From contig CAIVEW010000101.1 in assembly GCA_903905065.1 (NCBI GenBank), positions 1-64,000 on the forward strand: a stretch of 64,000 bases of DNA, written 5' to 3'. The stretch comes from an uncultured Bacteroidota bacterium. GTDB lineage: Bacteria; Bacteroidota; Bacteroidia; Chitinophagales; Chitinophagaceae. Of the stretch, positions 30,855 through 57,918 are shown piece by piece. The position numbers were made by a program, and so were the translations under genes. The notes below the pieces were generated by a model, which saw nothing but the letters and a program-made list of their open reading frames with translations, had not been told where the DNA came from and did not search any database. Position 1 is the first letter of the stretch, and each line of letters starts with the position of its first letter.

Positions 30855-32169
30855 CGTAAGGGGTTATGAACTTAAGAATAGTGGACAGTATAAGTCCGTA
30901 CAGCACAAAACAAATGAAGATGATATAGCCGGGTTGCAGGGCTGTGTTATTCGTACTGATGACGCTCAGCCCCTCACTGGGAATGTTCATGTTTTGCAGG
31001 CGGTTTTCCAGTGGCGCTGTGAGGCCTACATAGGTCATCAGTATAGCTATAACTATTACATCGGCCATGCTCCATTTGCCAGATTGAAAAGCGAAGTATT
31101 TGACAACTTTATTTTCAGCAATTCGTCTTTTGCTTAACAAGTGAATCCCTGTGGAGCTCAGCTTCATGATCGGAAAAAGGATACTGAATACCAGTATTAA
31201 GATGCCTACCCCTATAGAATCGGCATGATGCTGTTTTATCAGCACGTGTACCACATCCAGGATGCTTTTACTCTGAAAGAAAAGTACCTGGTCCTTGAAG
31301 ACTACATGCTCGCCCAGCAGCACAAAGTCAAACGACCTGATTCTCGCGTCCACCTCAATCATCGATGCCGTAAGCCCTACGCCGAGCAGGATAAAGGCAA
31401 ACAATAACGACATCACAAATAGCGCCGCGTGCAGGTCCACCCGCTTCCTCAATACCCACCACACCAGCAGCACCACTATCACACAACCCAGCATAGCAAA
31501 GGAATAGTTGTAGGTTTCTGTTCTTATAGGTCCAAGCAGCCCCAATAATTTATTGTTTAAATCGTCGTGTGATGATATGTTATACTTAGATAACAACGCG
31601 GCAGAGAGCGAGTCGCTGGTCATTATGGTACTATCTATGTAGCCGTGCTTCTGAAGGTCACTGAACTTGGACAGGGCCATGTCGCTTAGCTTGTTCTTAT
31701 TTGTCGGGTTGTCTACCTTAGCCATTATCGACCTGGCAAAATCAGGTACTTGTGCCTTTATTTTATCAATATTGACGAATTTTTTGACCGCGAATTTCTT
31801 TATTCTGCCTCCTACCGATGTCTGGGGTTTATTGATCATCACTTCCGCCTTATTGATCAGCGCAAGGATGATATCTTGTATTTCCAGTTGTAGTTCCTTT
31901 TTTTGTGCAGGCGTCATTCTGAAATTACGGACCTGGTGATCTACAATGTTGGCTACCTGCTCGCGCCAGTTTTCAACAGAAAACAGCCCAAGCTCAATAT
32001 TGTTGACACTGGCATAATCTTCTTTTACTTCCTTTTGCTGATCCGATAACTTATGAAGCCGGTAACCAAAGTATCCCTCCACAGCCAAAAGAATACCAAG
32101 AAATAGTATAAGTAGCAGTTTTGCACCAGTAGATCCACGATGTTTGAGACTATCTTGATCTTTAGTCAA
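30844..32169 (-). CDS. Membrane protein, PqiA-like, tandem paralog of 29481..30854
   Basis: 'GKWSMADVIVIAILMTYVGL'; same layout and conserved blocks ('FMSLLFA','DLFFQSKSI/VLFFQSKSI','LQPGYFIF'). Confidence 0.6.
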   Translation of the reverse strand: MTKDQDSLKHRGSTGAKLLLILFLGILLAVEGYFGYRLHKLSDQQKEVKEDYASVNNIELGLFSVENWREQVANIVDHQVRNFRMTPAQKKELQLEIQDIILALINKAEVMINKPQTSVGGRIKKFAVKKFVNIDKIKAQVPDFARSIMAKVDNPTNKNKLSDMALSKFSDLQKHGYIDSTIMTSDSLSAALLSKYNISSHDDLNNKLLGLLGPIRTETYNYSFAMLGCVIVVLLVWWVLRKRVDLHAALFVMSLLFAFILLGVGLTASMIEVDARIRSFDFVLLGEHVVFKDQVLFFQSKSILDVVHVLIKQHHADSIGVGILILVFSILFPIMKLSSTGIHLLSKRRIAENKVVKYFAFQSGKWSMADVIVIAILMTYVGLTAPLENRLQNMNIPSEGLSVISTNNTALQPGYIIFICFVLYGLILSTILKFITPYDAH

Positions 32170-33135: not shown

Positions 33136-36100
33136 ATGAAGAAATATTTATTCGCAGCATTCTTTTTTGCAGTTCCGGTTTTTGCTACTTACGGGCAAAA
33201 AATCACCACAACGCAAAAAGATTTTCAAAAATCAGATCCTACCTTTTTTGATATTCAACGGGAGTTTTATGCTCATTACGATCCCGCCCATGCTGCGGAG
33301 CCGGAAGACGAGGACGGGAATAAGGACGGGGAGTTCGAAAAGTTCAAAAGATGGGAATGGTATTGGCAACCGAGGGTGGGTACGACCGGGAAATTTCCGG
33401 CTCCGGATGTGCTGCTCACTGAATGGAACAAGTACGTTCAGTCACATCCGAATGCTGCGAGCCGCATCAGAACTGTTGCTGGCTCAGGCGGCTCGGGCCA
33501 CCATGCGTACGCGCCTTCAGTTTCAGGTTCGTGGACATCCCTGGGGCCAACCACGAGCCCAAGCAACTACCAGGACATTGGTAGGGTGAATTGTATCGCA
33601 TTTGATTCTTTGATCTCGACAACCTTTTGGATCGGGTCGCCGGATGGCGGTTTATGGAAAACAACAGATGGGGGAACAACATGGACAACGAATACAGATA
33701 ACCTCCCGGTGCTGGGTGTAAGCGATATAGCTATAGATAATCAGCATCGCGACACAATGTACATTGCTACCGGAGATGGCGATGGCGCCAATACAGGCTC
33801 GGGTGGAGACTCAAAAAGTGTGGGTGTATTGAAAACGACAGACGGAGGGGTGACCTGGAATACTACGGGCCTATCGTGGACTCTGGCGAGTGTGAATTTT
33901 ATTAAGCGATTGATCCTGGACCCAACTAATCCTTCGGTACTTATTGCCGCTACTTCAAACGGTATTTACCGCACGACCAACGGGGGAACAACATGGACGA
34001 ATACGCGTACGGGTTATTTTATGGACATGCAGATGAACCCCGGCAACCATAACATCCTGTGTGCCACCACGTATAGCTATGGCGGCGGTGCCCAGATATA
34101 CCAGTCAACAAATAATGGCGTAACCTGGACATCAGTTTATACCGGAGCTGGTATCGCAAGGATCAAATTGGCCGTAACACCCGCCTCGGTGAATAAGGTT
34201 GATGCATTGTGTGTTGATGCCACCAGTTGGGGTTTCAATAGTATTATGCACTCAACCGATGGCGGAGCGACATGGGTAACAGCACTGACAATTAATGCCG
34301 GTTGCACTAATGACTACATGGATGATGCAAACAACGCATCCGGATGCTATGGACAAGGATATTATGATGTAGGGTTTGCATGCAGCCCTACTAATCCGAA
34401 TGAGCTGTACCTGGGTGGTGTCAATACATGGAAAAGTACAGATAATGGCGCTACATGGACGATAAAGAATTACTGGTCTGGTGGTGGTGGAGTACCGACG
34501 GTTCATGCGGATAAACATTGGTTTACGTATCAGCCATCTACAGGTGTGTTTTTTGAAGGCAATGACGGAGGCATATACAAGACGGCAGACGGCGGCACCA
34601 CCTGGACACATCTTTCAAATGGATTAGTCATCAGCGAGATATACAGGATCGGCACATCGGCAACGTCTGCAGGTGATGTTATCTGCGGGTTGCAGGATAA
34701 CGGATCCAAAGAAGATGTTGCCGGCACATGGAGCAACCGGACCGGTGGCGACGGGATGGAGGCGCTCATCGACTATACTAATGTGAACATACAATATTCG
34801 ACTTACGTGCAAGGGCTGATCTACCGGACAACCAACCACTGGGGCAGCAACACGACGCTTGTAAACAACAATGCGGCATCAGGGGTGAACAGCGCAGGGC
34901 TTTGGGTGACGCCATACGTGGAGAATCCATTGAACCATAATGGGCTTTATGTGGGTAAGGATCAATTATACCGAGGGTTCAATGCCGGGTCTGCCGCAAC
35001 GGCAGGAGCTGTTACATGGGTTTCTATCAGTTCCAGCCTCACCTTTCCGACCAGTTCGTCGCAACTTATCAATGCTATTGCGGTTGCACCAACGGATTCA
35101 AACACTATCTATATCGCTTGTGACAACTATTTGTACCGGACAACCACTGGTGGCAGTTCATGGACGCTCGTTAACACCGCTGCGGAAAACATAACATACA
35201 TCGCTATCAACAATACTAACCCAAACAATGTATGGTTTACTCTTTCAGGGTATACCGCCGGGAGCAAGGTGTTTGTGACAACCACGGGCGGTGCAAGCTG
35301 GACTAATATCTCCGGAACGCTGCCAAATATTCCTGTTAATACAATAGTTTATTCAAATACCGGTTCCAATGGGGAATATATAGGTACCGACCTCGGCGTA
35401 TACTATCTGGGAACATCGGCTTCCGATTGGGTGCCATTTAATACCGGGCTGCCCAATGTGGTAGTAGATGAACTGGAGATCTGCTACGCCAACAGCAAGA
35501 TATATGCAGCAACATTCGGACGTGGGTTGTGGAGCTCTGATCTCTTCACCAATGTTGCCCCGATCACCGGGACATTTACAGTTTGTGTTAACTCAACAAC
35601 CCCACTCAGTGACGCTACTTCCGGTGGTACATGGAGCAGCAGTTCTGCAAATGCAACCGTTGGATCGACTGGCATCGTCACCGGGGTAACGGCGGGCACT
35701 GCTACTATTAGCTACACCGTCGGATCCACAGGTACTGTTACCGCGGTTGTTACCGTTGTTGCGTTGCCATCTGCCATCTCTCCTGCCGGTGCTTCGGTAT
35801 GTGTCGGATCTACGGTCAATCTAACCGATGTCACTACTGGCGGCACATGGAGCAGTGTGAACGCAACTGTTGGAACCATTTCTTCCGGGGGTACAGTTAC
35901 GGGCATCAGTACAGGGACCACTATTATATCTTATACAGCATCCACCGGATGCGCAGTAACAGTTGTAACTACGGTAAATGCGGCGCCTACCGCTGTGATC
36001 ACTCCGGCGGGCCCAACTACTTTCTGCTCACCGGTCAGTGTGGTATTGAATTCAAGCACCGCGGCCGGGTATACTTACCAATGGGAGCTGGGCGGCGTAA

Positions 36101-38019
36101 ACATTACGGGCGCTACGACTTCTTCGTATACAGCAAGTACCGGAGGAAGCTATACTATCTTCATTACCGGCAGTGGCTGCAGTGCTACCTCAGCGCCTGT
36201 TGCCGTAACTGTAAATTCTGTTTCTGTTTCCCCAATAACCGGTTCCGGGCTTGTGTGTATCGGGCAGACTACACCACTGTCGGATGTTACGACGGGCGGC
36301 GTATGGAACTCCGGGGCCCCTGGTACCGCTTCAGTATCTGGCACTGGAATGGTAACGGGTATCACTGCAGGTACCGCGACAATTTCATATTCGTATACCA
36401 ATTCCTGTGGAACTGCCATTGCCACGACCGTGGTCACTGTGAGCGCCGGTACCGCTGTGGCTCCCATTACGGGAACCGCGATTTTATGCGCTGGCGGAAA
36501 TACTCCGCTCAGCGATATTACTACCGGTGGCGCTTGGAGTTCCAGCAATGCTGGCGTAGCGGGTGTCTCAGGCACGGGGCTCGTTTCCGGAGTTGCCGGA
36601 GGCACTGCAGTTATCAGCTATGGTGTGACAAGTGGTTCCGGCTGTGTTACGAGCTCTGTGATCACTGTAACGGTTAACCCGAAACCTGCAGCAATAGTGT
36701 CACCCACCGGCCCTATCGTAATATGTCCCAGTGGCAGTGTATTGTTCACTGCTTCTTCGGGTGCAGGTTATAGCTACCAATGGCAGGATGCTTCCGTAAA
36801 CATTCCGGGTGCAACGACCGTCACCTATACTGCTTCCACGGCTGGCAGCTTTGATGTGGTCGTGTCCGCACTTGGCTGCAGCGCTACTTCTGCTACTGTT
36901 ATTGTAACAGTAGAAGTAGGAGCGGTTGTTGTGCCTTCAGTAAGCGTCACCTCCAGCCTGGGAACGGTACTCTGCGCGTCCGGTACTTCCGAAACATTTA
37001 CGGCCAATCCCTTAAATGGCGGGGCATCCCCAAGCTATCAGTGGAGTGTTAACGGAGTGGTAGTAGGCGCGGGGGCGAGCTATACCTACGCTCCGGCGAA
37101 CGGCGATGCGATCAGTTGCCTGCTCACCAGCAACGCTGCCTGTGCAATGCCTGACACCGCGAGTGCTACAGTGATCATGACGATAAGCCCGTTGATCACT
37201 CCTTCCGTAAGCATTACTTCGATACATAATGACAGCACCTGCATAGGTGATACCGTTCAATTCGCGGCTGTCCCCGTATTTGGGGGCACTGCGCCAACTT
37301 ATTTGTGGACGGAGAATGGAGTAAACGTGGCTACCGGCCCTTACTACATTTACGCGCCGCATGATGGCGACACATTGATCGTTACCATGACCAGTAACTA
37401 TCCGTGTTTGGCTACGTCAGTTGCGGTAAGCAATATGTTCATTATTCATGCATTTACGTCTTCAGCAAATGTGCTCTCTGTTTCGGTTTCTCAGTCGTCT
37501 ATTGTATCGGGAAGTGTCGACACATTTACTGCGGTGGCAAGCGGTGCGGGGGCCTCGCCGACATTCCAGTGGTTCATAAATGGCACCGCAGTGCCGGGTG
37601 CAACCGGAAGGCAGTATATCACGGATTCTCTCACTGACGGGCAGATCGTCAGTTGCGAGGAAACAAGCAGTTTTCTTTGTTCCTCGCCTCACTCGGTATT
37701 CAGTGGAGGTATTTCGATCATAGTAAGGCCAAGCGGTATAACACAGGTTGGGCTTAATGCAACGAAACTTCTGTTGGAGCCGAACCCGAACAAAGGTGCG
37801 TTCACCATAAAGGGTTTGCTACGAACATACGCTGATGAGCAAGTGGACATTGTTGTAACGAACGTACTTGGCCAAACCGTCTATAAGAATACTGCGACCG
37901 CAGCCAATGGTGCACTGGATGAGCATATTTCGCTTTCGGGTTCACTGCCGTCAGGCACGTACCTTGTCAGTGTGGCTTCGGGCTATGATTACGTGGTATT
38001 CCATGTGCTGATTGAATAA
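33136..38019 (+). CDS. Giant secreted BNR/sortilin-like beta-propeller protein with BIG2 and Ig-like repeats and T9SS sorting domain
   Basis: 'GGLWKTTDGGTTWT', 'VLKTTDGGVTW', 'MHSTDGGATW' BNR motifs; 'GGTWSSSSANATVGSTGIVTGVTAGTATISY' BIG2; C-term 'LLEPNPNKGAFTIKG...GTYLVSVASGYDYVVFHVLIE'. Confidence 0.88.
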   Translation: MKKYLFAAFFFAVPVFATYGQKITTTQKDFQKSDPTFFDIQREFYAHYDPAHAAEPEDEDGNKDGEFEKFKRWEWYWQPRVGTTGKFPAPDVLLTEWNKYVQSHPNAASRIRTVAGSGGSGHHAYAPSVSGSWTSLGPTTSPSNYQDIGRVNCIAFDSLISTTFWIGSPDGGLWKTTDGGTTWTTNTDNLPVLGVSDIAIDNQHRDTMYIATGDGDGANTGSGGDSKSVGVLKTTDGGVTWNTTGLSWTLASVNFIKRLILDPTNPSVLIAATSNGIYRTTNGGTTWTNTRTGYFMDMQMNPGNHNILCATTYSYGGGAQIYQSTNNGVTWTSVYTGAGIARIKLAVTPASVNKVDALCVDATSWGFNSIMHSTDGGATWVTALTINAGCTNDYMDDANNASGCYGQGYYDVGFACSPTNPNELYLGGVNTWKSTDNGATWTIKNYWSGGGGVPTVHADKHWFTYQPSTGVFFEGNDGGIYKTADGGTTWTHLSNGLVISEIYRIGTSATSAGDVICGLQDNGSKEDVAGTWSNRTGGDGMEALIDYTNVNIQYSTYVQGLIYRTTNHWGSNTTLVNNNAASGVNSAGLWVTPYVENPLNHNGLYVGKDQLYRGFNAGSAATAGAVTWVSISSSLTFPTSSSQLINAIAVAPTDSNTIYIACDNYLYRTTTGGSSWTLVNTAAENITYIAINNTNPNNVWFTLSGYTAGSKVFVTTTGGASWTNISGTLPNIPVNTIVYSNTGSNGEYIGTDLGVYYLGTSASDWVPFNTGLPNVVVDELEICYANSKIYAATFGRGLWSSDLFTNVAPITGTFTVCVNSTTPLSDATSGGTWSSSSANATVGSTGIVTGVTAGTATISYTVGSTGTVTAVVTVVALPSAISPAGASVCVGSTVNLTDVTTGGTWSSVNATVGTISSGGTVTGISTGTTIISYTASTGCAVTVVTTVNAAPTAVITPAGPTTFCSPVSVVLNSSTAAGYTYQWELGGVNITGATTSSYTASTGGSYTIFITGSGCSATSAPVAVTVNSVSVSPITGSGLVCIGQTTPLSDVTTGGVWNSGAPGTASVSGTGMVTGITAGTATISYSYTNSCGTAIATTVVTVSAGTAVAPITGTAILCAGGNTPLSDITTGGAWSSSNAGVAGVSGTGLVSGVAGGTAVISYGVTSGSGCVTSSVITVTVNPKPAAIVSPTGPIVICPSGSVLFTASSGAGYSYQWQDASVNIPGATTVTYTASTAGSFDVVVSALGCSATSATVIVTVEVGAVVVPSVSVTSSLGTVLCASGTSETFTANPLNGGASPSYQWSVNGVVVGAGASYTYAPANGDAISCLLTSNAACAMPDTASATVIMTISPLITPSVSITSIHNDSTCIGDTVQFAAVPVFGGTAPTYLWTENGVNVATGPYYIYAPHDGDTLIVTMTSNYPCLATSVAVSNMFIIHAFTSSANVLSVSVSQSSIVSGSVDTFTAVASGAGASPTFQWFINGTAVPGATGRQYITDSLTDGQIVSCEETSSFLCSSPHSVFSGGISIIVRPSGITQVGLNATKLLLEPNPNKGAFTIKGLLRTYADEQVDIVVTNVLGQTVYKNTATAANGALDEHISLSGSLPSGTYLVSVASGYDYVVFHVLIE

Positions 38020-39318: not shown

Positions 39319-40833
39319 ATGTATAAATTCCTTTTTGCTTTGCTTATTTCGATGTTTTCCTACAAAGGGCGTTCGCAAATATTGCCTGCAGAAGGGAGTA
39401 AATTGAATTACCGGCTTATTGGTTTTTCGTTTCCGGGTGAAATGGGTGGTAGCTATACATTGCAAATAGCATCGGGGAATTACAATTCGACAGATTCATT
39501 CAGCAAAAATATTGTGCTTATCCGCAAGACAAAACAGTCCAGGCTAGTTGTTGAGGTGCCATCTTTCGGCCGGGAATATTCGTGGCGCGTTGTCAGCAAT
39601 GATATAACGGCAGTTAATCCCGGATTTCACCATTTCAGCACAGGTACACTTCCATCCGGGGATACTAATATTGTCCGTCTAAAAATTCTAAAAAAGGCTG
39701 AAAAATATAAAGATGCTTATGTTTTTTTAGACGGCACTAAGACCCTCTATGACATGAACGGTAAGCCGGTGTGGTACTTGCCAGATATAAGAGGTGTTGG
39801 TACACGACCCCGAGACCTGAAGATGACGCAACAAAAGACGATTACTTTCTTGCTTGACAATTGTGCCTACGAGATAAGCTATAACGGAGCCGTCTTATGG
39901 ACTACTCCGGTTCCCGATGTTTCCAGGAAGAACCTGGGCGGGGGATATCATCATGAATTTACACGGCTTGCTTCCGGCAATTATATGGTGCTTGGAAAGA
40001 AGCAAGTGCAGTGGGAGTTGCCGGCAACAATAGACAGTAAAGTTCTGAACGCCCCAGGTGAAATAATAGTGCGAGATAGCGCCCAGAATAAATACTATCA
40101 GAAGATTGAATTAGGAACAGTCTTAGAATATGACAGAAAGGGAAATTTGATATGGTCATGGGATCCATCGGAATACCTAAAAGGGTCGGATCTCTATCTA
40201 CGGCGTACAGATGAAGGCCTATTCGACCTTGATGTACATGAAAATTCTTTTTTTTTCGATGATGCTAGTAGAACACTGCTGTTGAGCCTCAGAGATGTGA
40301 GCAGAGTGCTGAAAATAAAGTACCCCGAAGGTACAGTAACTGCTGCTTACGGCGGCACATACAAAAAAGACACCCGCGAAGTAGAAAGCCCGTTGTTCTG
40401 CTACCAACATAGCTGCAAACAGTCGCGGGAAGGGTATTTGTACCTTTATAATAACAATGGCTGCCATTTGAACCAATGTCCTAAGTTGATAATGATGAAG
40501 GAGACGGGGGGAGGCAACACTTCATTAAAAAAGGTTTGGGAATATGAATGCAATGTGGCCGGCATGAGAGAAAGAAATCCCCTTCATTCTATTTTTACGT
40601 CGGGTGGCAATGTAATTGAATTGCCGGATGGGTCTATGTTTGCCAGCATGAGCGTAAAATATGGCAACCTGTTAATCGTGGGCCGGAATAAAAGACTTTT
40701 ATGGAATGCTATATCAGAACGATGGAGCCCAACCGAAAAAAAATGGACGGTAGATGCCAATTACCGGGCCAGCATAATTCTTAGTCGCAAGGACCTGGAA
40801 GACCTGATATGGAATGACAGAAAAGATCAATAA
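39319..40833 (+). CDS. Arylsulfotransferase (ASST)-like secreted protein, paralog 1
   Basis: Signal peptide; 'LYDMNGKPVWYLPD', 'HHEFTRLASGNYMVLG', 'EYDRKGNLIWSWDPSEYL', 'DVHENSFFFD', 'GGNVIELPDGSMFASM'. Confidence 0.65.
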   Translation: MYKFLFALLISMFSYKGRSQILPAEGSKLNYRLIGFSFPGEMGGSYTLQIASGNYNSTDSFSKNIVLIRKTKQSRLVVEVPSFGREYSWRVVSNDITAVNPGFHHFSTGTLPSGDTNIVRLKILKKAEKYKDAYVFLDGTKTLYDMNGKPVWYLPDIRGVGTRPRDLKMTQQKTITFLLDNCAYEISYNGAVLWTTPVPDVSRKNLGGGYHHEFTRLASGNYMVLGKKQVQWELPATIDSKVLNAPGEIIVRDSAQNKYYQKIELGTVLEYDRKGNLIWSWDPSEYLKGSDLYLRRTDEGLFDLDVHENSFFFDDASRTLLLSLRDVSRVLKIKYPEGTVTAAYGGTYKKDTREVESPLFCYQHSCKQSREGYLYLYNNNGCHLNQCPKLIMMKETGGGNTSLKKVWEYECNVAGMRERNPLHSIFTSGGNVIELPDGSMFASMSVKYGNLLIVGRNKRLLWNAISERWSPTEKKWTVDANYRASIILSRKDLEDLIWNDRKDQ

Positions 40834-40839
40834 CACCGT

Positions 40840-42402
40840 TTGCGTACTATATTTACCGGAATTTCGGTGCCGGTCATGTATAAATTTATTGTTGCCCTCT
40901 CTTTTATTGCTGTGCCTCATTTTTTGTGGGCGCAGCTATTGCCGGCTGAAAACAGTAGACTTCATTACAGGCTTATAGGTTTTTCATTTCCTGCAGACAC
41001 CGGCGGTAATAATTACCAGCTAGAGGTCGCACTCGGCAACCATAACACCGAAGACGCTTTTCGAAGAGCGGTGATCGCCACGTATAACGGCCATAGAAAC
41101 GACCTGATTGCTGAGGTGCCTTACTTCGGTAAAGATTACACGTGGCGGGTGATTTATGCTGATAAAAATGCCGTTAAGACAAAAAGCGAATTCCATCATT
41201 TCAGCACATCCATTATCCCCGATATGGATACGGGTAATACGCGGGTAACGGTAACAAAAAATGTGGGTACCTATAAAGATGCGCTTGTTTGCCTGGATGG
41301 TAACAGGGCTATATATGATATGAACGGGCATCCGGTATGGTATCTCCCAACAATAGATGGATTGAATAATGAGAAACTGCGCGATGTTCGCGATATGAAG
41401 CTTACCGCAACAGGAACAATAACGTTCTTACTTAATAATGTGGGTTACGAAATCAATTATGATGGAAAGGTTTTGTGGAAAGCGCCTGACAATGGGGCAA
41501 TAAGCCATGACAGTCTGGAGCACTATCACCATGAGTTTACAAAGCTCAGGAATGGACATTACATGATTCTGGGCGCTGAATTTCCATTATGGAAATTGCC
41601 TGATCATGCAGATAGTAATGTGTTGCTTGATGCGCATACGATATACGATTCTGTTAACAGAGCCTTCTTTCAAAAAGTGGAATTTGGTACCCTGATAGAA
41701 TACGATGAAAAAGGAAATGTGCTATGGTCATGGAGGTCTTCCAAGTATTTTCAGAGGTCTGATCTTAAAGATAGTATCAATGCCCTCGGCAAATTCAAGG
41801 ATGTGCATGAAAATTCATTTTGCTTTGATGAGCAGAAAAAGGAAATTTTAGTAAGCTTTAGAAATGTAAGCCAGGTATTGAAAGTACGTTATCCCACTGG
41901 TGCAGTAGTTGCTACCTATGGCCACCACTACAAGATGAACAGCGGCGAGAGGTCAAGTAGTGATTTGTTTTGCAATCAGCACAGTGTCAAACGCTCGAAG
42001 CAGGGTTACATATACCTGTTCAACAACAATTGCTGCAACAAAGACGAAACACCAAGGATAGAGATAATGGAAGAACTGCCATTTGTCGGCGGGCGGTTAA
42101 GAAAGATATGGGAATATTCCTGTGTCCTCGACGGCTGGTCATTAAAGAGACATCCGCAGTTCCGATCGGGTGGAAATGTGATAGAACTATCCAATGGATC
42201 AATTTTCACGTCGTTGGCTACCGACCTGTACAGCAATATCTTTATTGTCGGCAGAGACAAAAAAGTGCAATGGAGCGGGATGCCCGAAAAATGGAATCAA
42301 CTAGAATCAAAATGGGAACCTGTGTTCCAATACAGGGCCAGCATCATCACTGATCAAAAAGATAAGGAGCGTTTAATATGGAATGGAACATTAAGAAAGT
42401 AG
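40840..42402 (+). CDS. Arylsulfotransferase-like secreted protein, paralog 2
   Basis: Same block order as paralog 1 ('IYDMNGHPVWYLPT','HHEFTKLRNGHYMILG','EYDEKGNVLWSWRSSKYF','DVHENSFCFD'). Confidence 0.65.
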   Translation: MRTIFTGISVPVMYKFIVALSFIAVPHFLWAQLLPAENSRLHYRLIGFSFPADTGGNNYQLEVALGNHNTEDAFRRAVIATYNGHRNDLIAEVPYFGKDYTWRVIYADKNAVKTKSEFHHFSTSIIPDMDTGNTRVTVTKNVGTYKDALVCLDGNRAIYDMNGHPVWYLPTIDGLNNEKLRDVRDMKLTATGTITFLLNNVGYEINYDGKVLWKAPDNGAISHDSLEHYHHEFTKLRNGHYMILGAEFPLWKLPDHADSNVLLDAHTIYDSVNRAFFQKVEFGTLIEYDEKGNVLWSWRSSKYFQRSDLKDSINALGKFKDVHENSFCFDEQKKEILVSFRNVSQVLKVRYPTGAVVATYGHHYKMNSGERSSSDLFCNQHSVKRSKQGYIYLFNNNCCNKDETPRIEIMEELPFVGGRLRKIWEYSCVLDGWSLKRHPQFRSGGNVIELSNGSIFTSLATDLYSNIFIVGRDKKVQWSGMPEKWNQLESKWEPVFQYRASIITDQKDKERLIWNGTLRK

Positions 42403-43952
42403 GCTCAGCTCTGCGTTATTACAAGGCCCTGGCCTGGTGTTCGTTTTTATTTTTAACGATATCCTTTTCGCCGCAGCTGTCTGCCCATTTGTTTCCGGCA
42501 GAAGGCAGTAAACTACATTATCGGGTCATAGGGTTATCAGGTCCTCAGATGACATCTGGCGCAAATTATACCTTCGAAATTGCCACTGGCAATTTCGGGA
42601 CCGAAGATTCCTTTAAAAAGAATATAATAGTAACCCGTTCAAGTAACGAGAACAAAACGATAGCTGAAGTACCTGCCTTCGGTGCGCAATATACCTGGAG
42701 GGTAATATCTGCAAGCAAGACAGGCGTTGCCAAAAGCGAATTTCACCATTTCAGTACCGGCATGATTCCCAATGTTGATACAAATGTGTCGCGGCTAAGG
42801 ATACTTAAGAGCTGCGATCAATGTAACGCCGCTTATGTTTTTATTGATGGCAAGCGTACGCTTTATGATATGAAAGGCCAGCCCGTTTGGTATCTGCCAG
42901 CGCTGCCGGGATTCAGCAAAGAAAAATTGAGTGACTTGCGCGATCTGAAGCTGTCGCCCAAGGGAACAATAACTTTTCTCCTCGACCAGCAGGCGTATGA
43001 GATAAATTACGACGGTGACATCTTATGGAAAGGTCCGAATACCGGTGTTGTCAGCGGGAAACGAATTGAGCATTACCATCACGAGTTTACCCGGCTGGCC
43101 AGTGGACATTATATGGTTTTGGGTGATGAAAAGGTATTATGGAAGCTGCCACCGACAACGGACAGTAGTGTATTGCATGATGACAACGTGGTATGGGATA
43201 AAGCAAAAAAGACAATTAACCAGAAAATAGATTTTGGTACGATCATCGAGTATGATGAAAAAGGCAAAGTAGTATGGTCGTGGAAATCTTCGGCTTATTT
43301 TAAAACCTCGGACCTCATTAATCGCAAAACACCCAAAGGCCTGTACGATATAGATACGCATGAGAATTCATTTTTTTTTGATGAGAAAACGAAAACTGTC
43401 TACATAAGTTTCAGGAATATCAGCAGGGTCGTCAAGATCAGCTATCCCGATGGAAGGGTATTAGGCGCTTATGGCAATGTCTATAACCCGGGACGATCAT
43501 TAACTGAAAACAGCCTGTTCTGTTATCAGCATAGCTGCAGGCGTTCACAAAAAGGGTATTTATACATATACAACAACAATAGCTGCAATTCCAATGCGTT
43601 CCCGCAAATATTAATGATAAAAGAACCAGTGTCTGATAAAGAGAAACTGAAAGCGGTTTGGGGATATGAATGTAATGATGAAATGAGGTCCGAGAAAAAA
43701 CAGACTAGTGACAGATATACAACCGGTGGAAATGTCTTAGAATTAGCTGATAACTCACTTTTTGTTTCCATGTGCAGCGGATATAGTGAGCTATTCATCG
43801 TTAACATAGATAAAAAAATACTGTGGAGCGCAGTACCGGAGAAATGGAATCTCGATGAAAAGATGTGGGAAGGAACAACGCAATATCGGGCTAGTGTCAT
43901 CAATATCCGAAAAGATCTTGAAAAACTGATCTGGCGAGTCGGTAAAAAATAA
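42378..43952 (+). CDS. Arylsulfotransferase-like secreted protein, paralog 3
   Basis: Same block order ('LYDMKGQPVWYLPA','HHEFTRLASGHYMVLG','EYDEKGKVVWSWKSSAYF','DTHENSFFFD'); start overlaps the paralog 2 end by 25 nt. Confidence 0.65.
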   Translation: MEWNIKKVGSALRYYKALAWCSFLFLTISFSPQLSAHLFPAEGSKLHYRVIGLSGPQMTSGANYTFEIATGNFGTEDSFKKNIIVTRSSNENKTIAEVPAFGAQYTWRVISASKTGVAKSEFHHFSTGMIPNVDTNVSRLRILKSCDQCNAAYVFIDGKRTLYDMKGQPVWYLPALPGFSKEKLSDLRDLKLSPKGTITFLLDQQAYEINYDGDILWKGPNTGVVSGKRIEHYHHEFTRLASGHYMVLGDEKVLWKLPPTTDSSVLHDDNVVWDKAKKTINQKIDFGTIIEYDEKGKVVWSWKSSAYFKTSDLINRKTPKGLYDIDTHENSFFFDEKTKTVYISFRNISRVVKISYPDGRVLGAYGNVYNPGRSLTENSLFCYQHSCRRSQKGYLYIYNNNSCNSNAFPQILMIKEPVSDKEKLKAVWGYECNDEMRSEKKQTSDRYTTGGNVLELADNSLFVSMCSGYSELFIVNIDKKILWSAVPEKWNLDEKMWEGTTQYRASVINIRKDLEKLIWRVGKK

Positions 43953-44242: not shown

Positions 44243-47200
44243 ATGAAAAAAAATCTATTCTACTCTATAAGGGTCGTACTAATTGCTTGTTTTTTACTGC
44301 TTACAAACATGAATTCGTATGCGTCTCATATCCTTGGTATGGACCTGTATTATACTTGGGTGTCCGGAAATACATACAAGATTACAGCTGTTTTATATGG
44401 TGATTGCTCCCCTTCATCATACACAGCATTTTCGTCATTGCCGTCTGCAGCTCCTGTTATATGCATATACAGAGGTTCAACTTATGTCACCTCTATCAGC
44501 CTTAATATCGAAGCGCCCACTGATGGGGTGGATATTACACCGGTTTGCCCTTCGGAAGTTGGCCATACTCAATGCGAAAACTCGTCATCAACTGTCCCCG
44601 GAATTAAAAAATTTGTCTACAGTGCCAATTATACTTTACCGGCGCCCACTGTTTCTAACTGCTGGCAGTTTGCCTATTTTGCCAATAATGGATATTATGC
44701 TTCATCTTCGGGAAGATCTGCCGCGATCACTAATTTTATTAACCCTTCGCTCACATCGATCGAGTTGGTAGATACCCTGGATAATTCGGTTTATGCGCAT
44801 AATTCCAGCGCGCAATTTTCGGTGATACCCACGCCTTTCTTCTGTCTTAATGAGGCCGACACCTATAACCCGGGCTGCGTAGACCCTGATGGAGACAATT
44901 TGAATATTGATCTTATCGCAGCAATGGACTGCGCTTATTCTTCCGGATGTGCGTTTGGTGTGCCGGTAACCTATACAGGCACTGCGTGGACTCCTCCTAC
45001 AACGCCGGTTTCAGCCACGACGCCGTTACAGGTAGCTGCGGGCACGTTTTCTTTTAATTCGTCAACAGGACAGCTGAACTTTACACCAAATGTAACGCAA
45101 CGATCCACTGTTGTTTATAACGTACAAGAGTTTCGCGGTGGTAGTCATGTAGGAAGTTGCCAGCGGGAAATGAACTTCCTGGTGCTTACTTGTACACACA
45201 GCGACCCGATCGGATGGATCGATTCCGCCTCCAATGGTACCGTTGTTGACAGTACCCATTTTACCGTGTGCGCGGGCTCAGGGCCATTTTCCATCTTTTT
45301 TGATCCGAGGGAGCCTGGAAGCAGCAATAATATTACAATCACTTCATCGGGATTGCCGGCTGGCTCAACGTTGACGGTAGTGGGTAATGGAACAACTACG
45401 CCGCATGGAACTTTTTCATGGAGCTCAACAGGGGTGGCTCCTGGTACTTATGTTTTCTATGTTACTTACACTGATAACAACTGTCCACTCGCCGGATCTA
45501 ATACGCAGGCAATTACTATAACGGTAACTCCTGCTCCAACTGTAACTTTTACAGTAATATCTGCTGCGACCTGCTCTGCACAGGAAGCTATATCTATAAT
45601 TCCAGGAGGCACGGGCTCTCCCTGGAACATCAATGTAACGGGAACAACGACGCAATCTTTTACAGGAGTCACAACTAGCTTCATCGATAGTTTGCCTCCA
45701 GGAACAGACACTATCCATATCGCATCGGCTGCAGGCAGCACGTGTAACACTTACGCAGTCATTACTATCGCGGGGCCTATCGCCATCACTATTGCAGCAA
45801 CTAACCCAACAGTATGTGCCCCGGCAAACGGTTCATTTACTGTGTCCGGACTTACACCGGGCGATTCGTACACTATATACTATACGGTAGGTGGGACAAA
45901 CTATTCGGTTGTCATGGTTGCAAATGCTGCGGGGCAGGTTACTGTCACCGGCCTGGCGGCGGGTAGTTACACAGGCGTGTATGCGGCATCAACTACCACC
46001 GGATGTACATCCAATATCGTGACCTTTACGCTTTCCAGCATTACGGTGACTATTACTGGTACTTTCACGAACCCTACTGTGTGCGCTCCGCCTGATGGGA
46101 CGATAACACTGTCAGGGCTTACTCCCGGAGCCTCATATACATTGAATTACACCGAAAGCGGAACTCCGCATACGATTACTGTAACTGCAAATGCAAGCGG
46201 GCAAATACTATTAACTGGCCTGCCGTCCGGCAACTACACGAATGTATATGTTATCGCAACAGCCAGTGGATGCACTTCAAATGTTTTGACTTTTGTACTG
46301 GTTAACCCATTGGATCCTCCGCCACCTGTACTTTCCAGCAATGGGCCGGTTTGTGCAGACAGTACTTTGTTACTAACGGCTACGGATGCTGCTACTGGCA
46401 TTGTTTATAGCTGGACAGGACCAAACTCGTTTTCTTCAACCATCGCCGATCCGTTTATCACTGATGTGCAAACGCTAGCCTCGGGAGTATATAATGTTAC
46501 GGTTACAAATACTACTACCGGCTGCAGTTCTACATCTTCCATAACGATAACTGTTAAGCCTACTCCTTCTGCGCCATTGGTGAGTGGCAATACGCCGTGT
46601 ACCGGAGGGGCCTTAAATCTTACTGCTAGTTCTGCCGCCGGATGTACGTATAGCTGGGCAGGCCCTGCAGGCTTTGTTTCACCGTCACAGAACCCAACAA
46701 TAACACCTGTTACCACTTCCAATTCGGGCACATACACGGTTGTTGCTACGCTAAACGGTTGTCCGTCATTGCCGGGTATTGGTTCATTTACAGTGTACCC
46801 AACGCCTCCCGCGCCGATCGTATCAGATACCAGCTATTGCCAGTTTGTCAATGCGCCGCAACTTACGGCAACCGGCAGTAATCTGCTATGGTACACCTCT
46901 GCAACCGGCACCGGATCAACCATAGCCCCGGTTCCTGCGGATACATCTGTTGGTACTACAACCTGGTATGTGAGCCAAACGATAAACGGCTGTGAGGGAC
47001 CGAAAGCGCCGATAAATGTTACCGTATTGTATCTGCCTGAGTTCAACATTGCAGGCAATACAACAATGTGCACCGGCGACAGTTCCACGTTCAGTTATTC
47101 AGGACCAGCGCTTAACACACCTGACTATACATGGTCGATACCCGCTAATGCTACGTTGGTTAGTGGTACAATTACAAGCAATGCGATCGATGTACAATTC

Positions 47201-48091
47201 AATTCTTCACAGGCGCAATTCATAACACTTACGGCTAGCGACTATGGCGGCAGGTGCAGCACTACAGAAACAATACCAGTAAATGTTGAAGCCCCACCCC
47301 TTTCAAATTTCTATGTTAAGCCGAATATTTGTGTAGACGACACGGTTGTAGTTGCATTGTCTTACAGATCCCCAAGTGCAACTGTATTTGCGTGGAATTT
47401 TGCCGGTGCGAATATCGTTGCTGCTAACTCAAATAGTGGCGGCCCGTTCAGTTTGTCATGGAACGACACAGGAATACATATTTTGTCGCTGATAACGACA
47501 ACCGACATTGGGTGCAGCACACCTCCTGTATTTGATACGGTCATGATACATGGCCTACCTAATGCCACAATAAAAGTGCCGGCAAAGGGTGCGGTTTGCA
47601 TTCACGACACGGTTGTACTCAGCGCAGCGACAGATTGCTACAATTGCTCTTACGCATGGTCGCCGGTGCATTTCTTTAGCTATAGGCTTGGACCGCAAAG
47701 CAATGATAATTCGACAGTCGAGGGTATCATTGATTATGCCGGTTATGTAAAACTCACTGTTATTGATCCGTTCGGGTGTAGGGCAACTGATAGTTTGTAT
47801 ATGAATCCAAAGCCATGCTGTGAAGTGCTTTTCCCGAATGCGTTCACCCCAAATGGAGATAACCATAACGATGTGTTCCGTCCTATATTAAGTGGCTATC
47901 ATAATTTCCACCAATTCCGAATTGTAAATCGTTGGGGACAAACGGTGTTCGAATCAGCGAATAGTGACGTTGCATGGGATGGTAATTTTAATGGCGTACC
48001 ACAGGACATGGATGTTTACTATTACTACCTGAAATATGATTGTGGTGGTGAAACCCTGGAGGCTAAGGGCGATGTAACGCTCGTGCGCTAA
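44243..48091 (+). CDS. Giant Ig/PKD-like secreted protein with gliding-motility-associated (CHU_C / T9SS type B) C-terminal domain
   Basis: C-term 'CCEVLFPNAFTPNGDNHNDVFRPILSGYHNFHQFRIVNRWGQTVFESANSDVAWDGNFNGVPQDMDVYYYYLKYDC'. Confidence 0.88.
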   Translation: MKKNLFYSIRVVLIACFLLLTNMNSYASHILGMDLYYTWVSGNTYKITAVLYGDCSPSSYTAFSSLPSAAPVICIYRGSTYVTSISLNIEAPTDGVDITPVCPSEVGHTQCENSSSTVPGIKKFVYSANYTLPAPTVSNCWQFAYFANNGYYASSSGRSAAITNFINPSLTSIELVDTLDNSVYAHNSSAQFSVIPTPFFCLNEADTYNPGCVDPDGDNLNIDLIAAMDCAYSSGCAFGVPVTYTGTAWTPPTTPVSATTPLQVAAGTFSFNSSTGQLNFTPNVTQRSTVVYNVQEFRGGSHVGSCQREMNFLVLTCTHSDPIGWIDSASNGTVVDSTHFTVCAGSGPFSIFFDPREPGSSNNITITSSGLPAGSTLTVVGNGTTTPHGTFSWSSTGVAPGTYVFYVTYTDNNCPLAGSNTQAITITVTPAPTVTFTVISAATCSAQEAISIIPGGTGSPWNINVTGTTTQSFTGVTTSFIDSLPPGTDTIHIASAAGSTCNTYAVITIAGPIAITIAATNPTVCAPANGSFTVSGLTPGDSYTIYYTVGGTNYSVVMVANAAGQVTVTGLAAGSYTGVYAASTTTGCTSNIVTFTLSSITVTITGTFTNPTVCAPPDGTITLSGLTPGASYTLNYTESGTPHTITVTANASGQILLTGLPSGNYTNVYVIATASGCTSNVLTFVLVNPLDPPPPVLSSNGPVCADSTLLLTATDAATGIVYSWTGPNSFSSTIADPFITDVQTLASGVYNVTVTNTTTGCSSTSSITITVKPTPSAPLVSGNTPCTGGALNLTASSAAGCTYSWAGPAGFVSPSQNPTITPVTTSNSGTYTVVATLNGCPSLPGIGSFTVYPTPPAPIVSDTSYCQFVNAPQLTATGSNLLWYTSATGTGSTIAPVPADTSVGTTTWYVSQTINGCEGPKAPINVTVLYLPEFNIAGNTTMCTGDSSTFSYSGPALNTPDYTWSIPANATLVSGTITSNAIDVQFNSSQAQFITLTASDYGGRCSTTETIPVNVEAPPLSNFYVKPNICVDDTVVVALSYRSPSATVFAWNFAGANIVAANSNSGGPFSLSWNDTGIHILSLITTTDIGCSTPPVFDTVMIHGLPNATIKVPAKGAVCIHDTVVLSAATDCYNCSYAWSPVHFFSYRLGPQSNDNSTVEGIIDYAGYVKLTVIDPFGCRATDSLYMNPKPCCEVLFPNAFTPNGDNHNDVFRPILSGYHNFHQFRIVNRWGQTVFESANSDVAWDGNFNGVPQDMDVYYYYLKYDCGGETLEAKGDVTLVR

Positions 48092-48256: not shown

Positions 48257-49315
48257 CTATCGTATAAGATTAGCCAGTTTCTTCTCGTCGGCAATAATAA
48301 CCTTACCGCTTTTAATGTCTATGAGCTGTTCGCTTTTAAAATCGCTTAGTGTCCGTATCAGCGACTCAGACGCCGTACCGGCAATCGTCGCCAGGTCATC
48401 CCGGCTGATGTCGATCATGAAAGGTTCTTTTTTATTGGCATGGTACTTCTTATGCAGGCTTACCAGCGCCTCCGCTACTTTTTTACGAAGTGTATTATAA
48501 GCAATGCCCAGTAGTTGCTGCTCCTTGTCTACGACATTCTTTGCCAGTATTGAAACAAATTTGCGCGCTATGCTCGGGTTGCTGTTTACCAGCTCCTCAA
48601 ACTCTTTTTTGGGTATAGTGGCAACCTCCGTTTCTTCTATTGTTTCCGCGTTTTCTTTATAAGTACTACCTTCCAAAAGAGTAATGTAACCAAGGAAATC
48701 ACCGGCATTATAAAGGTCCATGACAAGATCTTTGCCATCGTCGTGTGTCTTGTAAGTTCTTACTTTTCCTTTTACTATATAGTACAGGTAATGCGGGTTA
48801 CTGCCTTCTTTGTAGATGAGTTGTTTTTTCCGGTAGGTGCTGGTATTGCTTTCCTCTGCAAGTTGTTCCAGACTTTTCTTGTTACCCAGGGTTTGTCTTA
48901 GTTCATTAATTCCTTCAATATCAGGCGCGAGGTTTTTCTTAAGGATATCCAGTTTTTTAAACCGACTTTCAATGGCATTGAGCAGTTCATTGCCTGCAAA
49001 GGGCTTGGTAATATAATCATCAGCACCCAGTTCCATGGCAGCTCGGAAGTCGCTACGCTCGCTTTTCGACGTCAGGAAAATGAAAGGAATATTTTGGGTC
49101 TCAGGAGTCTTGTGCAAAACATGGAGTACGCCATACCCGTCCACACCTGGCATCATAATGTCGCAAATGATCAGGTCCGGCAAATGCTTCTGAGCGGCTT
49201 CTATCCCCTCCTTGCCGTTTGGTGCGGTTAAAACTTGGTAATCAGACAGCGTTAGTATTTCCGCTACATTTTCCCGGATATCTTCATTGTCTTCGATGAT
49301 GAGAATGTTTTTCAT
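48257..49315 (-). CDS. Response regulator: REC domain fused to Crp/Fnr-type cNMP-binding and HTH domains
   Basis: 'ILIIEDNEDIRENVAEIL...LIICDIMMPGVDGYG...IFLTSKS...YITKPF', then cNMP fold 'GSNPHYLYYIVKGKVRTYK...GDFLGYITLLEGS' and HTH 'SRDDLATIAGTASESLIRTLSDFKSEQLI'. Confidence 0.9.
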   Translation of the reverse strand: MKNILIIEDNEDIRENVAEILTLSDYQVLTAPNGKEGIEAAQKHLPDLIICDIMMPGVDGYGVLHVLHKTPETQNIPFIFLTSKSERSDFRAAMELGADDYITKPFAGNELLNAIESRFKKLDILKKNLAPDIEGINELRQTLGNKKSLEQLAEESNTSTYRKKQLIYKEGSNPHYLYYIVKGKVRTYKTHDDGKDLVMDLYNAGDFLGYITLLEGSTYKENAETIEETEVATIPKKEFEELVNSNPSIARKFVSILAKNVVDKEQQLLGIAYNTLRKKVAEALVSLHKKYHANKKEPFMIDISRDDLATIAGTASESLIRTLSDFKSEQLIDIKSGKVIIADEKKLANLIR

Positions 49316-49318
49316 GGA

Positions 49319-51028
49319 CTAATTATGATTTAGAAATGTGATGGTAAATTTTGTTCCTTCACCCAGTTTGCTTTCGCATGTTATTCTGCCGTTTAGCAGT
49401 TCGGTGTACTTTGCTACAATATGCAGTCCGAGACCGGTGCCTTGTATATTGGTGACATTCGAAGACCGGAAAAACCGCTTGAACAGGTTCTCGATATCCT
49501 CTGCCGGGATGCCGATGCCGGAATCTTTCACAGAAACCACTAATTTTTTGTCGGTTTTCTCAGAGACCAGTTCTATGATTGATTTTTCCGGAGAAAACTT
49601 GATAGCATTCGACAGTAGGTTTGTCACGATATGCTTCATCATCGAAGGATCCAGGTAAGTGACTCTTTCCTTTCCGGTATGAACATAGGATATCTTCTGC
49701 TCTTTTTTCAACAGGTGATTTACTTCATGAAGGATCTCATTCATTAGTTCCTTGATGTCAAACTCCCGCGAATGGGCCTGGATATCGCCTTCTTCAATTT
49801 TACCGACGGAGAGGAAGTCGTTAAGTATTTCAGTAAGTGAGGTCACCGAGGAAACTATGCGTTGTATATGTTTTTCCCGCTGCGGTTGCTCTTCAGTTTT
49901 TGGATACTTCGATAAAAGATAGGCAGAAGACAGCACCGCGCTGAGCGGCGTTCTGAACTCGTGCGAGGCCATGGACACAAACCGGGATTTTAATTCGTTC
50001 AGTTCCTTTTCTTTTTCCAGCGCAGCAAGCAATTCCATCTCTGCTTTTTTCTTTTCGGAAATATCAATAGCTATACCCAGATAGCTGGAAATATTATTGT
50101 TGGCATCTTTCAACGGTGTAACATTGAGTGAAACAAAGAACGTAGTTCTATCTTTTCGTACATAGTGCCACTCCTGGTTGGTGTCTTGATTTAATTCCAC
50201 GGCAGTGGTAAAAACTTCAAAGCCAGGCTTTATCATCCTTCCTGTTCTCTCAGAGAGTTCCTCGGCCTTTTTCTCAAGTTCACTATTCATGTGGAAACTG
50301 GCAAGCGTCATTTTATTAACTACCTCGGCAGATGAGTATCCCAGCCATTTTTCGGCGGCAGGGTTAAAAAACTGGATCAGACCATCTGTATCACACACAA
50401 ATATTATGGCCCCCGCATGGTTCCAGATGTTATTCAGGAATGTGTTTACCCGTTCCAGTTCGGCATCTTTTCTTTCCGTCTCTTTTATCTGGTTGCCGAG
50501 TTGTTCAACGGTTATGGCTAACGATTGTGAACCTTCTTTTACTTTTTGTTCCAAATGCGCATTCAGCTGCACAATGGCATGTTCTGTCTCTTTTCTTTGA
50601 GTAATATCATTGATGAATGCCAGCGCATAACTTTCCTCTCCTATCTTGTAGTGCCCCAGGCTTACCTCTACCGGAAATTCAGTACCGTCTTTCTTTAGCC
50701 CCGCAAGTTCCATGCCTAACCCCATGGGCCGGCTGTGCGGGTCATGGCTGAATTTTTCCCGGTGCCCCACATGCCTTTTGGAAAAACGCGTGGGCACTAA
50801 TACTTCCACCTTCTTTCCTATCAGTTCCCCTTCCCCATAGCCAAATTGCTTTTCGATATACTTATTCGCCATTTGGATGTCGCCGCCAGAATTAGTTATC
50901 AGAATGCCGATACTTGCATAATTAAATAACGCTTCAAATGTATCATGGGTTAAAGTAGTGAACGGCATCCCTAAATATAAGGCATTATGATCAGATGGCA
51001 TATATCTATACTGCTTAGAACGTGACAT
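49319..51028 (-). CDS. PAS-domain sensor histidine kinase (FixL-like first PAS)
   Basis: Two PAS domains, H-box 'SMASHEFRTPLSAVLSSAYLL', N-box 'NLLSNAIKFSPE', G-boxes 'DSGIGIP', 'GTGLGLHIV'. Confidence 0.9.
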   Translation of the reverse strand: MSRSKQYRYMPSDHNALYLGMPFTTLTHDTFEALFNYASIGILITNSGGDIQMANKYIEKQFGYGEGELIGKKVEVLVPTRFSKRHVGHREKFSHDPHSRPMGLGMELAGLKKDGTEFPVEVSLGHYKIGEESYALAFINDITQRKETEHAIVQLNAHLEQKVKEGSQSLAITVEQLGNQIKETERKDAELERVNTFLNNIWNHAGAIIFVCDTDGLIQFFNPAAEKWLGYSSAEVVNKMTLASFHMNSELEKKAEELSERTGRMIKPGFEVFTTAVELNQDTNQEWHYVRKDRTTFFVSLNVTPLKDANNNISSYLGIAIDISEKKKAEMELLAALEKEKELNELKSRFVSMASHEFRTPLSAVLSSAYLLSKYPKTEEQPQREKHIQRIVSSVTSLTEILNDFLSVGKIEEGDIQAHSREFDIKELMNEILHEVNHLLKKEQKISYVHTGKERVTYLDPSMMKHIVTNLLSNAIKFSPEKSIIELVSEKTDKKLVVSVKDSGIGIPAEDIENLFKRFFRSSNVTNIQGTGLGLHIVAKYTELLNGRITCESKLGEGTKFTITFLNHN

Positions 51029-51086: not shown

Positions 51087-51100
51087 CTGATTTAAATCAT
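51087..51100. promoter_or_regulatory. Crp/Fnr-like box CTGAT-TTAA-ATCAT
   Basis: TGATTTAAATCA palindrome; same sequence occurs at 60981-60994. Confidence 0.6.
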
Positions 51101-51804
51101 CTTTTATGACAGCAGGAGTGTATTTCGTTTTGTGCAACCACTACTTTAGGGCTGAGGTAGGGGATACCCAGGTTCATACCCCTTAATATGAACAAGCAAC
51201 CGAAAGAAAATACAATAACGGGAACTAATTTCTTAATGTGACCGCCGCGGAAAATATGAATTTTGTTTTTCAACAGGGTAATACTTACCAGCATAGGTAA
51301 TGTGCCCGCTCCAAATAAATAGATTAACCCGACTGCCTCGGCGGGGGAGTGCAATGTCATTGATGCAGAGAGCGCCATATATACAAGCCCACACGGAAGC
51401 AGTCCGTTCAATATTCCGGCGACCGTAATCGCACCCAACCCCGGTTGTCCAATGACTTTGCCCAGTTGCTTCTTAACAAATACCCCCCAAGGCAATTTTA
51501 TTTGCGCAAAGTGGCCGGGGAAAAAAGAAAAGATGCCGGTAATCAACAAGGCCGCACCAAGTGTTATAGAAATTCCTTGTTGGATTTTAGGATCAAACAG
51601 GCTCCTGAAAGAGTGCAATACCAAAGCCAGTGATGCATAGACAGATACCCGGCCGATATGATAAAGGGCAATTGCGAAAAATTTCCGAATACCTGTGAAA
51701 AGTTGAAAAGGCAGTATCCATACTATAGGCCCGCACATACCGGCGCAATGCAGGCTGCCAGTGAAGCCCATCAATATAGCCATTATTGCCACGGAAGTAT
51801 TCAT
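51097..51804 (-). CDS. SafE/TauE-family sulfite exporter-like protein of the cco locus
   Basis: 'IMAILMGFTGSLHCAGMCGPIVW', 'GILNGLLPCGLVYMAL', polytopic; C-term 'HSCCHKR'. Confidence 0.8.
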   Translation of the reverse strand: MNTSVAIMAILMGFTGSLHCAGMCGPIVWILPFQLFTGIRKFFAIALYHIGRVSVYASLALVLHSFRSLFDPKIQQGISITLGAALLITGIFSFFPGHFAQIKLPWGVFVKKQLGKVIGQPGLGAITVAGILNGLLPCGLVYMALSASMTLHSPAEAVGLIYLFGAGTLPMLVSITLLKNKIHIFRGGHIKKLVPVIVFSFGCLFILRGMNLGIPYLSPKVVVAQNEIHSCCHKR

Positions 51805-52247
51805 TAGGAGTGCAATGCTATTTCAGATTCCTGGTAATAATTTTTCCCATCTACCGCGCAACTAATTTTTATGGTGTAGGTTGTGTTGCGCAGCAATTTG
51901 CGTGATATTGTGACACTATTGTTATCAGTATTGATCTTGAAATTCTTATCCCATTCGGCATCTACTGGCGAATAGAACCAGATATCTCCCGACAACAATT
52001 TATTCTTGAACTCTTCAGGGAAATCAATGATCACAGTATTTACATCAGCATGAACGGAAACCGGTTTCGACAAGCTGGACTGATTTTTGCCGGCATCCAG
52101 CGTTTTCTGAAAACCCAGCTCGGCTTCGTAATAATTTTTTGTGACCAGGTCAAATTTTTGGTGACTGCTGGCAAGAACCAGTGTTGCCATGCCGATCACA
52201 AAACCGACATACAAAATTGCGATTTTCCATCCCCATCCTATTTTCAT
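51804..52247 (-). CDS. ccoH: FixH/CcoH family protein
   Basis: N-term TM 'GWGWKIAILYVGFVIGMATLVLASS', 'LVTKNYYEAELGFQKTLD'. Confidence 0.8.
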   Translation of the reverse strand: MKIGWGWKIAILYVGFVIGMATLVLASSHQKFDLVTKNYYEAELGFQKTLDAGKNQSSLSKPVSVHADVNTVIIDFPEEFKNKLLSGDIWFYSPVDAEWDKNFKINTDNNSVTISRKLLRNTTYTIKISCAVDGKNYYQESEIALHS

Positions 52248-52266
52248 ATGATTTCTGTTTTAGTGG

Positions 52267-53676: not shown

Positions 53677-53681
53677 TCTTG

Positions 53682-54869: not shown

Positions 54870-54895
54870 GTTGTTCTGTTTGGTATGAATGAATA

Positions 54896-55066
54896 TTATT
54901 CGTTTTCCTCGGGAAAAGGAATGTGTTTCAAAGCGTCGATGTATTTTTTGTCTGCTTTCAGCGCCCATGTTGCCACTACAGTAAAGAACAGGAAGAACAT
55001 GGCCAATGAAGTGAGCGGGTAAATCCCAACGCCCGTGATCGTTTCGAGATAATGGATGAATTTCAT
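54896..55066 (-). CDS. ccoQ: cbb3 oxidase CcoQ-like subunit (not in the ORF track)
   Basis: Hand translation: MKFIHYLETITGVGIYPLTSLAMFFLFFTVVATWALKADKKYIDALKHIPFPEENE*; one TM; between ccoNO and ccoP. Confidence 0.75.
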   Translation of the reverse strand: MKFIHYLETITGVGIYPLTSLAMFFLFFTVVATWALKADKKYIDALKHIPFPEENE

Positions 55067-55077
55067 TTGCTATGATT

Positions 55078-57267: not shown

Positions 57268-57287
57268 ATCAGTGTAGTTGGTGTTAA

Positions 57288-57443
57288 CTATTTTGTTTTT
57301 TGTATTTCGTCATCAAATAACATGCGCATCGCAGCTCCGTCCCTGTCTTCATATTGGTCGCTTTTAACGCTCCATAAAAAAGCGAAAAGGAAACCGCCCG
57401 CTACCAATATGCTTACTCCTACCAGGACAAAAAATGCGCTCAT
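57288..57443 (-). CDS. ccoS: cbb3 oxidase maturation protein CcoS (not in the ORF track)
   Basis: Hand translation: MSAFFVLVGVSILVAGGFLFAFLWSVKSDQYEDRDGAAMRMLFDDEIQKTK*; matches CcoS 'FxWAxxxGQYxDLExPAxRIL'-like layout. Confidence 0.85.
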   Translation of the reverse strand: MSAFFVLVGVSILVAGGFLFAFLWSVKSDQYEDRDGAAMRMLFDDEIQKTK

Positions 57444-57514
57444 GATCTCTTCGTTAATTAATACACAAAACTATTTCGGTTGAAAAATGATTTTCATGAT
57501 CTTGCTCAAGGAGA

Positions 57515-57534
57515 AACATGATAATCGTCATGTT
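57515..57534. promoter_or_regulatory. Crp/Fnr-geometry inverted repeat upstream of ccoS-ccoNO
   Basis: AACATGA-TAATCG-TCATGTT perfect 7+6+7; core ATGAT-AATC-GTCAT. Confidence 0.65.
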
Positions 57535-57536
57535 TT

Positions 57537-57791: not shown

Positions 57792-57918
57792 GAATTGTTT
57801 TTTTTTAACAAAAATAGTTTCACCTAATTCAGCTTCAGTTGACTCCCGTCATGGCTCAATGTGTTTCTCGTCAGATTTATTGATTCGCTGAACAACCGCG
57901 GATGACGGCTCCTGGAGA

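Follow-up and report, generated by a model that had tools for sequence, protein, structure and literature searches.

The question raised by this locus is whether three diverged genes standing in a row in an uncultured member of the Chitinophagaceae encode working arylsulfotransferases (ASSTs), and what such a tandem array might serve. The genes lie in a stretch of 64,000 nucleotides (the window), for which an earlier note, made from the letters alone, had proposed a tandem of three secreted ASST-like paralogs at 39319-43952. All three open reading frames proved to be intact and to run on the same strand (Table 1), and alignment gave pairwise identities of 47-50% over ~500 aa. The order of conserved motifs given in the earlier note was recovered as listed, except that copy 1 reads QHSCKQS where a '-Rs-' element had been placed and copy 3 reads GGNVLEL. 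The 25-nt overlap reported between copies 2 and 3 was found at 42378-42402; the corresponding overlap measures 25 nt in the related array L033 and 31 nt in L031. The conserved ATG of copy 3 lends no independent support to that start, because it also falls within the conserved LIWNG codons of copy 2. The 7-bp gap described between copies 1 and 2 had to be corrected, since it amounts to 6 nt when counted from TTG 40840 and to 42 nt from ATG 40876. The latter is likely to be the true start of copy 2, a preference that comes from ATGTATAAATTTATT and the preceding TATATTTACC stretch kept in L031 and L033.

Table 1. Positions in the window of the ASST-like genes and of the residues and regions discussed in the text.
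Feature	Position	Strand	Remarks
ASST-like copy 1, exported	39319..40833	+	504 aa; PF05935 E 2.7e-12; orthologs in L031-L034
Copy 1 putative active-site residues H212, H307, N309, R325, H364		+	by alignment
Copy 1 Cys pair C361/C382		+	by alignment
ASST-like copy 2	40876..42402	+	508 aa from ATG 40876; PF05935 E 4.2e-17
Copy 2, alternative and less likely start TTG 40840	40840-42402	+	520 aa
ASST-like copy 3	42378..43952	+	524 aa; PF05935 E 9.9e-17
Copy 3 N-terminal signal peptide region	42378..42488	+	model helix 3-29; Sec-like; cleavage site by eye
Copy 3 H235, second His of HHEF, equivalent of H252	43080..43082	+	invariant in 118/118 homologues
Copy 3 H328-E-N330, equivalents of H356 and N358	43359..43367	+	His328 in 110/118 (Tyr in 7); N330 in 118/118
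Copy 3 R346, equivalent of R374	43413..43415	+	R in 75/118, K in 41/118 homologues
Copy 3 H385, equivalent of the sulfated nucleophile H436	43530..43532	+	invariant in 118/118
Copy 3 C382 and C403, co-occurring Cys pair	43521..43586	+	putative disulfide

All three proteins scored above the curated cut-off of PF05935 (46.8, 62.7 and 61.4 bits for copies 1, 2 and 3 against 24.2), although the match ends near position 280 of 374. PF14269, the other family against which a profile search had been proposed, was not matched (17.1-21.8 bits, curated cut-off 27), and a search of the three proteins against NCBIfam returned no useful family. The best profile match in the PDB was 9kf4 (E 4.5e-6), and 3elq was matched with E 2.1e-3. 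An AlphaFold model of copy 3, built from a 40-sequence alignment (mean pLDDT 87.3, pTM 0.85), predicted a signal helix, a beta-sandwich (~44-127) and six four-stranded propeller blades, the blades being counted by hand from the strand list. The six-bladed propeller anticipated in the earlier note thus appeared in the prediction, and the N-terminal helix agrees with its claim that the proteins are secreted. When this model was compared with the PDB using Foldseek, the top matches were the entries for E. coli ASST (E 1.6e-16, TM 0.56, 15% identity), followed by the Streptomyces sulfotransferase Cpz4 (E 1.7e-12); the ten best matches were all one or the other of these proteins, and later ones were generic propellers. 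A match to tetrathionate hydrolase at rank 47 was set aside as weak, generic propeller similarity. Together, the PF05935 scores and the predicted fold uphold the ASST-like identity of the three copies.

In the profile alignment to E. coli ASST, H356 and N358 fall within HENSF, R374 matches the Arg of SFRN and H436 lies in QHS. The remaining residue, H252, was placed by way of L097, a canonical ASST belonging to the same taxonomic order (3elq, E 8e-50), as the second His of HHE, which aligns with H235. By this alignment H252, H356, N358, R374 and H436 of the E. coli enzyme correspond to H235, H328, N330, R346 and H385 of copy 3, and all five residues are present in each of the three window copies. 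The histidines of HENSF and QHS, singled out earlier as catalytic candidates, retain that status in aligning with H356 and H436; beyond that set, conservation extends to a third putative active-site His (in HHEF, matching H252), an Asn and an Arg/Lys. R350 was considered as the equivalent of R374 and discarded, as the alignment places R374 at R346. The C418-C424 disulfide loop of the E. coli enzyme is absent here. Of the 118 homologues, 95 have both C382 and C403, 21 have neither and 2 have one of them (116/118 concordant), a pattern to which shared ancestry adds and which is consistent with a disulfide unlike C418-C424. Judged by sequence and structural model, the window proteins are probable sulfuryltransferases.

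The genome to which the window belongs carries 12 copies of the ASST-like family, spread over 10 contigs, as well as a T9SS-tailed PF05935 protein, making 13 ASST-family genes in total. L031, L033 and L034 have the three-gene array with its gene order unchanged, and each copy has an ortholog clade of its own. The 13 genes of these arrays formed a single clade in a tree of 120 rows (SH-like 99; only 59/4 in a smaller, careful tree), which fits triplication in place before these species split. Synonymous sites were near saturation; in those comparisons that allowed the synonymous rate to be estimated, dN/dS between orthologs was ~0.07-0.11; this value of ~0.1, the shared gene order and the per-copy clades bear out the old duplication for which the earlier note had argued. 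Of the 35 genomes examined within the genus, 28 carried the ASST-like family, at 1 to 13 copies each, and at E 1e-60 it was patchily distributed over the Chitinophagaceae sample (21/299 genomes). Its occurrence in 9 of the 104 sampled genera rules out a family limited to one genus. Many of the relatives' genomes are metagenome-assembled, and in-frame stops were seen in some relatives. A short ORF at L015:4518-4736, just upstream of an intact copy, matches the ASST-like profile (E 1.2e-5) and is probably a decayed duplicate; at L048:5534-12028 an ASST-like domain begins a 2164-aa ORF, a possible fusion.

Around the triplet, T9SS-type secreted proteins lie on both sides (33136-38019 and 44243-48091), and a RibD_C protein and a two-component pair are also near. 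T9SS-tailed proteins were found near 25 of 51 loci of the ASST-like family, a raw count to which we attach no weight, because such proteins are common in Bacteroidota. No DsbA/DsbB-like partner was present among the tested neighbours of the triplet, as had been noted, and a search for VKOR, a possible partner in oxidative folding, gave no match. A search of all contigs of the genome for a PF00884 sulfatase gave no match, as against the 13 ASST-family genes. A cbb3 oxidase cluster follows farther downstream (51100-60375), with CcoN and CcoO domains fused in a 729-aa ORF (55081-57267) and with FixP, FixG, FixH, a DsbD_2 protein and a heavy-metal P-type ATPase. Close to it, a 352-aa protein combining a response-regulator receiver, a cNMP-binding domain and a Crp-type HTH (48257-49315) adjoins a PAS histidine kinase (49319-51028). 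On the minus strand, at 29484-32169, two PqiA-domain membrane proteins stand in tandem.

At other loci of the ASST-like family a neighbour of ~340 aa recurs, a lipoprotein-like diheme cytochrome that matches the thiosulfate dehydrogenase TsdA (PDB 4wqc, E 8e-46). Equivalents of TsdA Cys96 and Met209, which are heme ligands in that enzyme, are kept in 40/40 aligned cytochromes of the high-scoring class; low-scoring cytochromes share both, so these residues do not mark the linked class. With a score split that is partly circular, as ASST-linked genes served as seeds for the TsdA profile, an ASST adjoined the high-class TsdA gene at 34 of 44 loci with usable context and the low-scoring class at 0 of 27 (20 controls with flanks of several kb and 7 others). 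No ASST was seen at 16 further phylum-level low-class loci with 1.5 kb flanks. Linked pairs also involve other ASST subfamilies, in three bacterial families, and in two families of the class beyond the Chitinophagaceae an ASST immediately precedes the high-class TsdA gene in 7/7 cases; neither this linkage outside the family nor the lack of any linked case in the low class rests on profile seeding alone. Six high-class or intermediate TsdA genes from more distant families had no ASST within 1.5 kb. The orientation of the pair varies by genome (divergent, convergent or co-directional), which indicates that the linkage survived rearrangement. Five genera show four co-directional genes, SusC-SusD-ASST-TsdA (L158-L162; for example L158:2576-9997), and the ASSTs of these loci carry a Tyr at the position expected for R374 (LLSFY).

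Presence of the two genes was also compared between genomes. Within the genus, the 21 genomes with a TsdA-type gene all had the ASST-like family (21/21), and the 7 genomes without the family all lacked the TsdA-type gene (Fisher p 5e-4). In G009 and G034, which have a single ASST-like copy, that sole copy adjoins TsdA. Among the 299 sampled genomes, high-scoring TsdA was found in 18/21 of those with the ASST-like family against 7/278 others (p about 1e-20 to 2e-20, uncorrected for phylogeny), and in 6 of those 7 the TsdA gene adjoins an ASST of a different subfamily. The window triplet itself has no TsdA-type gene beside it under a pair criterion of about 700 bp; the one TsdA-type gene of this genome lies on contig C79, next to another ASST-like copy. 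The array clade groups with the clade containing this TsdA-adjacent lineage (SH-like 92, 120-row tree), a kinship that is suggestive only. A limited literature search, which leaves novelty unproven, found no report joining arylsulfotransferase and thiosulfate dehydrogenase.

Several accounts of the array have to be weighed against these data. We consider it unlikely that the family has kept the ASST fold and lost sulfate transfer, so that its members would be propellers binding sulfated ligands or mere sulfate-ester hydrolases. The large size and fast turnover of the family, the stops in some relatives and the Arg-to-Lys and His-to-Tyr changes in several members would suit such a loss, and a hydrolase role would be possible in a genome with no sulfatase match; yet H235, N330 and H385 are invariant in 118 copies and each window copy has five of the five residues. 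That the array is a functionless accident of recent local duplication is hardly credible, since the same ordered orthologs occur elsewhere with dN/dS ~0.1 and purifying selection contradicts it, even if birth and death take place in such families, as the remnant ORF in L015 illustrates.

The cytochrome neighbours raise the alternative of inorganic sulfur, in which the family would take an SO3 group from thiosulfate, tetrathionate or sulfide, or hand one to them, as part of a pathway shared with the adjacent TsdA-type thiosulfate dehydrogenase. The contrast between 34/44 and 0/27, the Cys96 and Met209 equivalents in the 40 cytochromes, the co-occurrence across 299 genomes (phylogeny uncorrected) and the 7/7 linkage in two further families all favour it. 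We nevertheless regard it as very unlikely: the reaction is without precedent in ASSTs, no TsdA lies near the window triplet, the low-scoring cytochromes have the same residues, and the SusC/SusD genes of five linked loci suggest that the substrate is organic. A combined scheme, which we hold to be quite unlikely, would have a Bacteroidota ASST-fold subfamily and the TsdA-type diheme cytochrome form a periplasmic pathway joining sulfate-ester transfer with thiosulfate/tetrathionate chemistry, the triplet being an expanded branch; for example, an organic sulfate might donate SO3 to sulfide, or tetrathionate might donate it to an acceptor.

The explanation that we prefer is that the triplet probably consists of exported, PAPS-independent sulfuryltransferases of the ASST superfamily that arose by an old tandem triplication and have been held under purifying selection. 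In its favour are the PF05935 scores, the predicted fold, the residue mapping, the conserved array with its low dN/dS, and a genome that has 13 ASST-family genes but no sulfatase match. Against it count the ~15% identity to characterised ASST, the partial Pfam match, the missing E. coli disulfide loop and the Lys and Tyr swaps, although these swaps do not occur in the window copies. In E. coli ASST, transfer follows a ping-pong course through His436 (PMC13426309, a 2026 review). By analogy, in the periplasm or at the outer surface, a donor sulfate ester would be held in the centre of the six-bladed beta-propeller and its sulfuryl group would be taken up by the histidine of QHS (in copy 3, H385) with the assistance of H235, H328, N330 and R346, after which the sulfo-histidine would pass it to an acceptor. 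The triplication would have taken place inside the larger family, and its copies were presumably retained for different donor/acceptor pairs. Catalytic activity, the disulfide, specialisation of the copies and a wider periplasmic role in sulfate-ester and sulfur-oxyanion metabolism are what we infer from these data. The pairing with TsdA, and in some genera also with a SusC/SusD importer, gives ASSTs a concrete and testable pathway context, which bears on why some bacteria keep a dozen diverged ASST genes and on the natural donors and acceptors of these enzymes.

As a class, ASSTs are already known and fall into two sequence clusters (PMC13426309); the subfamily described here, with its Cys pair and its pairing with TsdA, appears to be a new form of that class. 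The E. coli CFT073 enzyme (PDB 3ELQ, 3ETS, 3ETT, 4P05; PF05935) is likewise exported and likewise combines a beta-sandwich and a six-bladed propeller with the five active-site residues. The window family differs from it in its low identity (~15%), in its many paralogs per genome, in having another Cys pair in place of the C418-C424 loop and in the absence of DsbL/DsbI among the tested neighbours. Within the Bacteroidota, BvAST of Bacteroides vulgatus is a PAPS-independent ASST with a sulfated histidine (PMC13426309); this gut species is described as having one putative AST gene of this kind next to another that is PAPS-dependent (PMC13426309), and the likeness is drawn from the published description. 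Known TsdA (PDB 4WQC, 4V2K) contrasts with the partner found here, which is lipoprotein-like and ASST-linked at loci other than the window triplet. Streptomyces Cpz4, the caprazamycin sulfotransferase (PDB 9KF4), has a similar fold, and its H-x-N, R-N and Q-H blocks align with those of the window family, but it is an actinobacterial antibiotic-pathway enzyme of low identity set in another gene neighbourhood.
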